NCBI GenBank assembly: GCA_040757115.1
Contig: JBFLYA010000166.1
Coordinates: 1 to 8,294, forward strand
From: a bacterium
GTDB taxonomy: Bacteria > UBA9089 > CG2-30-40-21 > SBAY01
Length of the DNA: 8,294 nucleotides
Direction of reading: 5' to 3'
Shown: positions 5,471-8,070 of the stretch, one piece after another
How positions within the stretch are numbered: position 1 is the first letter of the stretch
Layout of the letters: the number at the start of each line of letters is the position of its first letter
Program-made: the position numbers and the translations under genes
Notes under the pieces: model-generated
What the model saw: only the letters and a program-made list of their open reading frames with translations
Database searches by the model: none
Told to the model about the DNA's origin: nothing

Positions 5471-6229
5471 CTACTGTTTTTCTTTTCCAATTAAGTTTAA
5501 GAAAGGTTGAAGGATATCTATTGGAATTGGAAAGACAACCGTTGTATTTTTTTCAACCCCTATTTCAGTTAAGGTTTGTAAATATCTGAGTTGAACGGCG
5601 ACAGGAACTTTATTGATAACCTCAGCGGCTTGAGTTAATTTTTCTGCCGCCAGGAATTCACCTTCGGCATGAATAATCTTCGCCCGCTTTTCCCGTTCTG
5701 CCTCAGCCTGTTTTGCCATTGCTCGTTTCATCGCCTCAGGTAACTCAACATCCTTTACCTCAACCACACTTACCTTTATTCCCCATGGGTCTGTTTGAGA
5801 ATCGATTATTCGCTGTAACTCCTGATTTATTTTATCCCGATGTGCTAATAACTCATCTAATTCTGATTGTCCAAGAACACTTCTTAAGGTCGTTTGAGCA
5901 ATTTGCGAAGTCGCATAAACATAATTAGTGATTTTAGTAATCGCATTTGCTGGATTAAGCACTCGGAAATAACAAACAGCATTAACTCGAACAGTCACAT
6001 TATCCCGCGTAATGACTTCTTGTGGTGGAATATCCATTGTAACAGTTCTTAAATCAACCTTATTCCATTGTTCAAATAATGGAATAATATAAATAATCCC
6101 TGGTCCCCGGTCACCAACTAACCTTCCCAATCTAAAAACTACGGCTCTTTCATACTCACGCAAAACCTTAATTCCGCCAATTAAAAGCACAATCGCAAAA
6201 CCTATCACCACTAATGAAATATGTCCCAT
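5471..6229 (-). CDS. Slipin / stomatin-like SPFH (band 7) membrane protein
   Basis: The 252-aa protein has one N-terminal membrane segment (residues 4-20), then an SPFH domain starting [16 protein letters not shown] (21-36). It continues through [17 protein letters not shown] (42-62), [15 protein letters not shown] (76-90) and the [16 protein letters not shown] stretch (113-128). A charged helix rich in Ala/Glu/Lys (about 165-207) can form coiled-coil oligomers. The C-terminus has the hydrophobic [10 protein letters not shown] (231-240). Prokaryotic slipins scaffold membrane microdomains and pair with NfeD proteases. In the archaeal pair PH1510/PH1511 the protease cuts the slipin C-terminal hydrophobic segment, which is retained here. 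Its nfeD partner is the next gene upstream, now separated by an inserted element. The strong ribosome binding site AAAGGAGG (10-nt spacing) supports this start. Confidence 0.93.
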
Positions 6230-6249: not shown

Positions 6250-6261
6250 TTGGTAATTTGT
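6250..6261. repeat. 12-bp target-site duplication, left copy
   Basis: ttggtaatttgt directly abuts the left terminal inverted repeat and is perfectly repeated at 6627-6638, directly abutting the right one. Confidence 0.88.
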
Positions 6262-6626
6262 TAGGGTTCTGCAAAACCAGGAAACTGTAGTTTTTAAGCA
6301 GGTATTTAAAACCTCTATTTTTATCAATTTCATCCAAAGAGCAAAATGCAAAAAGCAAATATAAAAATTACATATCAAAATGTAAAATTATCTCTTTCCT
6401 TTCAGCGCTACTTCCTATTGCTCACCAATTCTTTGAGAAACACTATCCTTTGGCAACTTATCGATGAATTCTATAAGTCGCAGAGTAAAGTTATACACTC
6501 TTTTCTTGAAGTCCTTTTTGAAATTTGATTTGTAATTTTGCATTTTGATATTTATATTTGATATTTAATATTTGATATTTGATATTTATTTATTGTCTCC
6601 CCCAAATCCTATTTTGCAGAACCCTA
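6262..6626. mobile_element. 365-bp MITE-like element with 15-bp TIRs and 12-bp TSD
   Basis: The left end tagggttctgcaaaa (6262-6276) is the exact reverse complement of the right end at 6612-6626, and perfect 12-bp direct repeats flank both. This is the signature of a transposed unit. No transposase is encoded. Inside are a second inverted pair (6373-6390 and 6533-6550, 17 of 18 matching) and a broken four-helix-bundle protein gene. Removing the element and one duplication leaves an nfeD-slipin spacer of about 85 bp. A 12-bp duplication is within the range known for IS4-family elements (for example the IS231 group), but the parent family cannot be assigned from this sequence. Confidence 0.85.
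6415..6543 (-). pseudogene. 5' fragment of a four-helix-bundle (23S rRNA IVS-type) protein gene
   Basis: From an ATG at 6543 the minus strand encodes 42 aa starting MQNYKSNFKKDF, followed by RVYNF, LRLIEFIDKLPKDS and QRIGEQ, then TAG. This pattern (short lead, helix 1, LPKDxxSxxxGxQ) is that of the four-helix-bundle protein family found in 23S rRNA intervening sequences and widely elsewhere. These proteins are normally about 115-125 aa and continue after GEQ with LLRSATSIGAN. Here the next bases read LGSSAE if one T is restored after the CAA codon, suggesting a one-base deletion; similarity then ends in an AT-rich repeat. The fragment is therefore both frameshifted and 3'-truncated. It lies inside the inserted element, in the same direction as the surrounding operon. 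Confidence 0.78.
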
Positions 6627-6638
6627 TTGGTAATTTGT
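6627..6638. repeat. 12-bp target-site duplication, right copy
   Basis: ttggtaatttgt, identical to 6250-6261, directly follows the right terminal inverted repeat. Confidence 0.88.
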
Positions 6639-6702
6639 AATTGGTTAAATGGTAACTGGTTAAATACTTATCATATAACCGCTACCGAGTATCAATTACC
6701 AA
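6627..6702 (-). repeat. Inverted repeat at the end of nfeD, hit by the insertion
   Basis: TTGGTAATT at the nfeD stop (6702-6694, minus strand) pairs with AATTACCAA at 6635-6627. Between them are short tandem aaccaRttac-like units. An RNA hairpin here could act between nfeD and slipin, but the stem is AT-rich and no T-run follows, so it is not a typical terminator. Confidence 0.4.
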
Positions 6703-8008
6703 ATTTCCTTATCTTTAATTTTAATCCTTCCATTCCGACTATTTTTACTTTTTCACCTTCTTCAATCACCTCCTCGTCTTCAGTTATAGCCTCCCATATT
6801 TCACCTTGAGCAAAGACCAATCCTTGTTTTGATATTTTTGTTTTAGCTATGGCAGACTCTCCAATTATTCCTTCTTTTCCAGTAGTTACCTTGCGTCGAT
6901 GAGCGCGAATACTCAACCCAATAGCAATAAAGGAGGCTAAAGCAGTGCAAATTGCCACGGCTAAAATTAAATTCCTGGAAATAGTGATGAAAGGAGCGGC
7001 AGAAGAGTCAATCAAGATAAAAGAACCAAATATCAAGGATATACCACCTCCTATGCTTAATAGCCCATGTGAAGGGGCAAATGCCTCTAATATTAAGAGG
7101 ATGAAACCAAGAATAATTAGAAGTAAGCCGGCTAAATTAATTGGCAGACTTTGTAGTCCAAAGAAGGCTAATATCAAACAAATACTGCCACAAACAGCCC
7201 CTAATCCTACGCCCGGAGAGGCAAATTCATAGATAAGCCCATAAATACCCAGCATTAATAAAATATAAGCCACATTTGGCTCGGCAATGGCGTGGAGGAA
7301 TTTCTCTCTAAAATTCATCTTAATTTCTTGCGTGGCTATGCCTTTTGTTACAAGTTTAATTGTCTCTTTTTTCTTTTTTATGATTTTTCCATTTAATTTT
7401 TTAAGAAGGTCTGAGAAATCTTCGGCAATAAAGTCAATTACTTTAAGGTTAAGAGCCTCTTTTTCTGTAATAGATTTGCTTTTGCGCACAGCATCTTCTG
7501 CCCATTTGATATTGCGTCCTTTTTCCTCAGCAATGCTTTTAACCCCTGCGACTAAATCATTGGTAATTTTATCTTCCATAACCCCAGCACTTTTTGTTCC
7601 TTCGCTTTGAAAAGGAGCACTACCCATAGTTACCGGATGTGCGGCACCAATATGGGTCATTGGTGCCATAGCGATGACATCACAGGCTAAAGAAATAAAT
7701 ACACCCGCAGAAGCCGCCCTTGCACCTCGTGGGGAAATGTAAGTAATAATCGGGATTTTAGAGTTAAGTATTTCCTTGACAATATTATGGGTAGAACTGA
7801 CAAGTCCTCCTGGGGTATCCATTTCAATGATTAAACATACAGCCTCCTCTTTAACCGCCTTATTAATCGCATTGACTACAAATCGCTCGGTCACAGGATT
7901 AATTACACCTTCTATCTTGATCTGATAAATAATCTCTGTCTTTGCCCAAACAGGGCTATAAATAAACAGGAATATTACGGTTAAAAAAATCAATTTCCAC
8001 TTGGGCAT
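6692..8008 (-). CDS. nfeD: NfeD family membrane serine protease (ClpP-class + NfeD OB domain)
   Basis: The 438-aa full-length form of NfeD. It has a signal peptide (residues 1-22, ending SPVWA), then a ClpP-class protease domain (25-205) with IIEMDTPGGLV (60-70) and the nucleophile S100 in RAASAG. The probable general-base lysine is K147 in MEDKITND, and AEEKGRN and KSITEKEAL are also typical. Hydrophobic segments lie at about 245-263, 267-285, 291-310, 315-333 and 345-366. The C-terminal OB-fold NfeD domain (about 377-434) contains GKEGIIGESAIAK and EGEKVKIVGMEGLKLKI. The ATG at 8008 is chosen for its AAGGGGAG site and immediate signal peptide; an ATG at 8038 would place charged residues before it. 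The next gene encodes its expected slipin partner, supporting a joint role in membrane quality control or microdomain proteolysis. It is the first visible gene of the block. Confidence 0.94.
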   Translation of the reverse strand: MPKWKLIFLTVIFLFIYSPVWAKTEIIYQIKIEGVINPVTERFVVNAINKAVKEEAVCLIIEMDTPGGLVSSTHNIVKEILNSKIPIITYISPRGARAASAGVFISLACDVIAMAPMTHIGAAHPVTMGSAPFQSEGTKSAGVMEDKITNDLVAGVKSIAEEKGRNIKWAEDAVRKSKSITEKEALNLKVIDFIAEDFSDLLKKLNGKIIKKKKETIKLVTKGIATQEIKMNFREKFLHAIAEPNVAYILLMLGIYGLIYEFASPGVGLGAVCGSICLILAFFGLQSLPINLAGLLLIILGFILLILEAFAPSHGLLSIGGGISLIFGSFILIDSSAAPFITISRNLILAVAICTALASFIAIGLSIRAHRRKVTTGKEGIIGESAIAKTKISKQGLVFAQGEIWEAITEDEEVIEEGEKVKIVGMEGLKLKIRKFGN

Positions 8009-8016
8009 CTTTTTCT

Positions 8017-8024
8017 CTCCCCTT
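8017..8024 (-). promoter_or_regulatory. Ribosome binding site fixing the nfeD start
   Basis: AAGGGGAG on the minus strand, 8 nt upstream of the ATG at 8008. The alternative ATG at 8038 has no comparable site. Confidence 0.75.
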
Positions 8025-8070
8025 GAATAGGTTATCACATTCGCTGTAGCACGCTAAACACATACTCACT

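Follow-up and report, generated by a model that had tools for sequence, protein, structure and literature searches.

The window analysed here, i.e., the whole stretch of 8,294 nt, represents one complete contig (G000:C166) of a source genome (G000) that comprises 4.3 Mb in 462 contigs. A gene for an NfeD protein (6692–8038, minus strand; PF24961, PF25145, and PF01957) and a gene for an SPFH/Band 7 protein (5471–6229, minus strand; PF01145, E = 3e-39) are located upstream and downstream, respectively, of a 365-bp element (6262–6626), which carries the remnant of a four-helix-bundle (4HB) gene on the minus strand and is thus enclosed by an nfeD-SPFH gene pair in the same orientation. The ends of the element are terminal inverted repeats (TIRs) of 15 bp at 6262–6276 (TAGGGTTCTGCAAAA, plus strand) and 6612–6626 (minus strand), which match at 15 of 15 positions, and these are flanked by 12-bp target-site duplications (TSDs; TTGGTAATTTGT) at 6250–6261 and 6627–6638 (both unstranded), in agreement with the claim of a first-pass annotation that the 4HB fragment lies inside a TIR/TSD element; approximately 28 paired copies of this element are present in the genome. 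The right TSD coincides with the start of a gene-less heptamer array (ATTGGTA, 6626–6660) that adjoins the element and has an inverted partner at 6684–6702, and this array hairpin (6626–6702) is the insertion target of the window element. A scan of the window against Rfam yielded no matches. Elsewhere in the window, positions 248–1171 hold an apparently intact gene of the PDDEXK_2 (PF12784) transposase family that encodes 307 aa.

Within the element, an open reading frame of 42 aa (6415–6543, minus strand), the ATG of which (6541–6543) is located within a leader array, was found to share 91% identity across 43 aa with P0001 (E = 6e-20), an intact 4HB protein of 123 aa that is encoded in the copy of the element at G000:C211. 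P0001 scored 81.7 bits against TIGR02436 (cut-off 24) and resembled PDB entry 2RLD (E = 3e-11) and, weakly, 2GSC; its match to the Avd profile of NCBIfam was weak (E = 0.0014; 19 bits vs. a cut-off of 80 bits). The earlier identification of the fragment as a 4HB gene was hence borne out through its identity to P0001, and this similarity supports assignment of the fragment to the 4HB proteins of the 23S IVP family (PF05635/TIGR02436). A profile search had been proposed as a check on this assignment; the fragment alone showed no Pfam or NCBIfam match at E<=1, which is consistent with its short length rather than with non-membership, and the match to PF05635 was obtained only via the intact copy (C211 locus, 66.8 bits; cut-off 33.8). 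As compared to the intact P0001 gene, the window gene has an internal deletion of approximately 216 bp, the junction of which carries an in-frame TAG, such that the minus strand contains, in this order, the first 42 codons, the in-frame TAG, the last eight codons, and the natural stop; the surviving 3' end of the gene (EVALKGKR*, 6388–6414, minus strand) includes this natural stop, a TAA at 6388–6390.

Direct comparison confirmed that the start region of this gene is repeated in inverted form, as previously noted, with positions 6373–6390 (TATCAAAATGTAAAATTA) representing the reverse complement of positions 6533–6550 (TAATTTTGCATTTTGATA) at 17 of 18 positions. No other such pair within 200 nt is present in the 8.3-kb window (this match appears in two registers), and none of 401 dinucleotide shuffles of the element produced a pair as good as 17/18; the inverted leader copy is not due to chance. 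While this copy had been placed just past the point where the gene breaks off, it instead begins at the natural stop codon of the gene (TAA, 6388–6390), and the supposed break-off is therefore the internal deletion. The 18-nt pair forms the inner part of two arms of 55 nt each that are 76% complementary and thus imperfect, i.e., a leader arm at 6533–6587 (minus strand), which contains the ATG and consists of a 7-nt array (ATATCAA...; 60% match at lag 7), and an inverted downstream arm at 6336–6390 (minus strand), the innermost 18 nt of which match the start region. In intact copies of the element, the ATG lies within the left copy (TATCAAAATGCAAAATTA) and the right copy opens with the stop codon (TAATTTTACATTTTGATA). 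Folding of the element RNA, which had also been suggested as a check, predicted pairing of the arms of the window element in both the MFE and the centroid structure (z = -4.08) as well as pairing of the leader arms of the intact element (z = -3.05), with both predicted folds being better than those of all 100 shuffles.

The TIR sequence (TAGGGTTCTGCAAAA) was found 144 times in the source genome at <=1 mismatch, as compared to no matches for a reversed control, and 28 unique TIR pairs with lengths of 258 to 584 bp were identified. TSDs of 8 to 13 bp, with 10 bp as the commonest length, were present in 25 of the 28 paired copies, and several target sites of the family, including the target site in the window, represent GGTAATTGGT-like repeat arrays. 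At the level of sequence, these ends and duplications show that the window's element family has been multiplied by TIR/TSD DNA transposition. The leader with the start codon was examined in 80 copies, of which only those in C211 and C50 have the full 123-aa 4HB gene, and most copies of the family have lost the middle of this gene. With regard to operon direction, 20 members of the family were co-oriented and one was opposed. G001, a genome of the same genus, contains eight exact TIRs and two or more paired elements, with no transposase inside the paired copies, and the two other genomes of the taxonomic family contained none. A TSD length of 8 to 13 bp, as observed here, would fit IS4-family elements, yet none of 11 PF01609 loci in this fragmented assembly had paired TIRs that match the ends of the element.

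A second short family, found at approximately 36 places in the source genome, has the ends GGTGGTGTC...GACACCACC and an 8-bp TSD, and carries one TAGGGTTCTGCAAAA end along with the same 4HB gene with an in-frame deletion (MQNYKSNFKEEVAGFLKELEEFGNIFASSILTLKGKR); this second family is a mosaic of two element families. Its ends are IS1-like (e.g., C10:14030, C84:13192, and C106:12272), and classification as an autonomous IS was ruled out, as the family is short and has no transposase. Yet another 4HB cassette is located in TIRs GTAACTATTCACC...TGAATAGTTAC (C50:15766, C49:15566, C18:341, C108:1641, C88:5119, and C72:15059), and the same TIRs also flank cassettes that carry GxxExxY genes (L189 and L190).

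In order to evaluate 4HB genes in general, we computed a local score for inverted matches between the 150 nt before a gene and the 220 nt after it, with a threshold of >=14 and with mismatched pairs as controls. When all 4HB genes in the source genome were read directly, most were found to have a short tandem array before the gene and the reverse complement of this array after it, with an array unit that is private to each gene; in some cases, the same 4HB lineage was present at several loci. For 14 of the 16 independent 4HB lineages in this genome, the score of the gene's own pair exceeded every mismatched pairing. The observation that the first-pass annotation had named as contrary to its proposal, i.e., intact family members that lack an inverted leader copy, thus did not occur. 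By comparison, one of 103 other small open reading frames in the examined DNA of this genome reached a score of 14, and this one is a GxxExxY (PF13366) gene. The inverted leader pattern also holds among relatives and across phyla, as a score of at least 14 was reached by 21 of 29 4HB loci in other genomes, the closest of which belong to the same genus and the most distant to other phyla (vs. 2.8% for mismatched pairs), and by 56 of 80 4HB loci in named genomes from approximately 20 phyla (vs. 3.0% of mismatched pairs); these 80 loci include representatives of Acidobacteriota, Chloroflexota, Bacteroidota, Planctomycetota, Omnitrophota, Patescibacteria, Spirochaetota, Synergistota, and SAR324. 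Seven of 106 control open reading frames in the named loci reached 14, and three of these seven are further 4HB genes. Autocorrelation in the flanks peaked at 7, 14, and 21 nt, with values at lag 7 of 0.40 and 0.38 in the upstream and downstream flanks, respectively, vs. 0.26 in the gene and in distal DNA; these peaks were absent in the gene and at a distance of 700 to 800 nt. The arms of the 4HB genes showed a mean match of 0.68 at lag 7, and 67 of 80 clear cases had a period of 7. Most upstream arms, which adjoin the start codon, are rich in purines, and downstream arms open at the stop codon or close to it. These sequence comparisons showed that in many phyla 4HB genes are, as a rule, bounded by inverted arrays, and the hairpin cassette is well supported as the architecture of the 4HB family.

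4HB cassettes located between close codirectional genes were co-oriented at 41 and opposed at 4 distinct sites (p = 9e-9), a bias that could be explained by selection against antisense inserts alone. Operon examples, for which neighbouring genes were identified by eye from sequence, include the arrangement sdhA-4HB-sdhB in approximately 12 Bacteroidota, odhB-4HB-lpd in Algoriphagus, two cassettes within one fatty-acid operon in Cecembia, and recJ-4HB-nadD in Chryseobacterium. Among 118 Chryseobacterium genomes, the recJ-nadD junction was filled in approximately 18 and decayed in at least two, with most others being without the gene. A flank tree of the best 30 loci showed at least nine changes between filled and empty states, and the sister pairs L372/L400, L371/L390, and L376/L399 differ at this junction. 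As gene-less alleles retain one heptamer array and are similar to each other, the pattern does not discriminate between repeated insertion, deletion, and allele exchange; recombination between alleles or convergent loss may account for it. The match between arms at sdhA-sdhB was 16.3 within species vs. 10.8 between species, and at recJ-nadD the own and cross values were 13.9 and 13.3, respectively, which represents essentially no arm covariation beyond shared ancestry; concerted evolution of the arms is thus not uniform. The 3' end of recJ (TTTAGGGATTAG) is identical to the unit TTAGGGA of the adjacent array (L252:2455-2475, L371-L400), hinting, from the recJ site alone, that host sequence at the point of insertion may seed an array.

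The GxxExxY proteins (PF13366) represent a second array-bounded protein family. The source genome contains 65 GxxExxY matches or fragments, and many of these genes are flanked by inverted arrays; among 22 GxxExxY loci from other genomes, 19 reached a score of 14, vs. 6.3% of mismatched pairs (loci L189-L208 and L401-L428, source genome and other genomes together). The units of these arrays are 8 to 10 nt long, with a mean match of 0.43 at lag 8 and 0.28 at lag 7. As 4HB arrays have units of 7 nt, and as this difference is also seen inside one genome, unit length tracks the protein family. Examples of GxxExxY units include CACAGAGAC and CGCAGATTA, and the outer end of many of these arrays opens with AACCRC. 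In the window, a GxxExxY fragment on the minus strand (1514–1756) has a period-8 array at its start (1726–1756, TTCTCCAC), and period-7/14 arrays are present past its end (1394–1515); this region is probably a broken cassette of the second type.

Overall, we consider it probable that the window element descends, by deletion, from a short TIR element that had taken up a 4HB hairpin cassette. Such a cassette consists of an array of 7-nt units that includes the ribosome-binding region (and, in the case of the window, the ATG as well), a 4HB gene of approximately 120 codons, and, at the stop codon, the same array in reverse complement; the gene thereby occupies the loop of a long, imperfect hairpin. 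We propose that the family would be mobilised in trans by a transposase encoded outside the element and that the hairpin would be retained because the transcript of the insert folds out of the host mRNA, in which case insertion into an operon would be tolerable in one orientation. The folded insert RNA might be cleaved by RNase III, by analogy with the mechanism published for 23S intervening sequences (IVSs), or might merely be insulated, and the match between the arms might be upheld by slippage and template-switch correction of quasi-palindromes and/or by selection for pairing. With regard to the suggestion in the first-pass annotation that 4HB genes travel as hairpin cassettes, the architecture thus proved to be general and the window family moves as a DNA element with TIRs and TSDs, but the part of the suggestion that makes the hairpin itself the traveller is conjectural. 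Bare (TIR-less) cassettes, which show scattered presence and absence but no TSD or clean ancestral empty site, may move autonomously.

One alternative explanation, which we regard as unlikely, is that the 4HB and GxxExxY proteins themselves generate or mobilise the arrays, with the protein setting the unit length, and that the resulting self-moving cassettes include the 23S IVSs. While the dependence of unit length on the protein family even inside one genome would be consistent with this explanation, as would the finding that the PD-(D/E)XK-like GxxExxY genes are also array-bounded (19 of 22 in other genomes), the existence of gene-less heptamer arrays and hairpins, and the relationship between 4HB proteins and the retroelement protein Avd suggested by the weak NCBIfam match (E = 0.0014), several observations argue against it. 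Specifically, we know of no biochemical activity of 4HB proteins, bare cassettes have no defined TSD or insertion junction, and GxxExxY genes in the source genome are often located within other TIR elements, which could mobilise these genes. We also find it improbable that the arms are regulatory, with purine-rich repeats providing the Shine-Dalgarno sequence and the downstream arm acting as a terminator or translation switch, and that they are inherited vertically without mobility; the mostly purine-rich upstream arms by the start codon and the location of the downstream arm from or near the stop codon would agree with such a role, but presence and absence are scattered among sister species, one 4HB lineage occurs at several loci in the source genome, and downstream neighbours are close and co-oriented, which makes a terminator role ill-suited. 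Finally, an ordinary MITE with a chance 4HB passenger, the leader of which would be a decayed inner TIR unrelated to 4HB genes generally, is highly improbable despite the clear TIRs and TSDs and the broken gene in most copies, as unrelated 4HB genes that lack these particular TIRs, both in this genome and in further phyla, bear gene-specific inverted arrays and as ordinary open reading frames are rarely array-bounded, such that the mismatched-pair and open reading frame controls largely refute this explanation.

The TIR element with a captured cassette that we favour shares with MITEs its short length, TIRs, TSDs, many copies, and lack of an internal transposase, but differs from MITEs by its 4HB remnant (intact in two copies), inner inverted arrays, and 20:1 co-orientation. 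23S IVSs with an S23p/IVP open reading frame occur in Coxiella and Leptospira, and cyanobacterial STRR heptamers are 7-nt units that occur in intergenic DNA as direct repeats. The Coxiella 23S IVS, which RNase III excises, has a 28-bp terminal stem and an S23p open reading frame that is directly preceded by two to three GACAGAT heptamers, the copy number of which is strain-variable (PMC4990558), and the analogy to 23S IVSs that was drawn in the initial description of the window is hence an apt one. Like 23S IVSs, the cassettes described here have a PF05635-type open reading frame in the loop of terminal inverted repeats; unlike 23S IVSs, they are located between protein genes (nfeD and the SPFH gene in the case of the window copy), the window copy sits in a TIR/TSD DNA element, and RNA excision is proposed by analogy only. 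In Beggiatoaceae, TAACTGA repeats with 7-nt units are found upstream of start codons, with one heptamer used genome-wide (PMC4679880). Both STRR and TAACTGA repeats share the 7-nt unit and the intergenic location upstream of start codons with the arrays reported here, but they have been described as direct repeats and have not been linked to 4HB genes; in contrast to the Beggiatoaceae repeats, the unit here is private to each cassette, and each array has an inverted partner. The Avd protein of diversity-generating retroelements may be a relative of the 4HB proteins, based on a weak profile match (19 vs. 80 bits). In the open-access subset of the literature, we found no description of the general 4HB inverted-array pattern.

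To our knowledge, the function and the spread of IVP/4HB proteins have been open questions ever since the discovery of IVSs in 23S rRNA. The idea that the IVS open reading frame aids mobility has been published (cited in PMC4990558), previously without a wider test. It is conceivable, even if on balance somewhat doubtful, that hairpin gene cassettes in approximately 20 phyla form a class without a name to date, in which a 4HB or GxxExxY gene is combined with private inverted arrays and unit length (7 vs. 8 to 10 nt) is determined by the protein family, that the encoded protein makes or moves the hairpin, and that 23S IVSs represent the rRNA case of these cassettes. Insertion of 4HB cassettes into operons also fits the reported presence of 23S_rRNA_IVP genes within cas loci and operons (PMC3936711), and 4HB genes in cas operons may thus have arrived there by cassette insertion instead of belonging to the CRISPR system. 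If 4HB genes everywhere sit in inverted heptamer arrays within operons, IVSs would be one case of a widespread class of elements, and both the role of the protein and the origin of the private mirror-image arrays would be testable in culturable hosts, e.g., in Chryseobacterium with its filled and empty sister sites.
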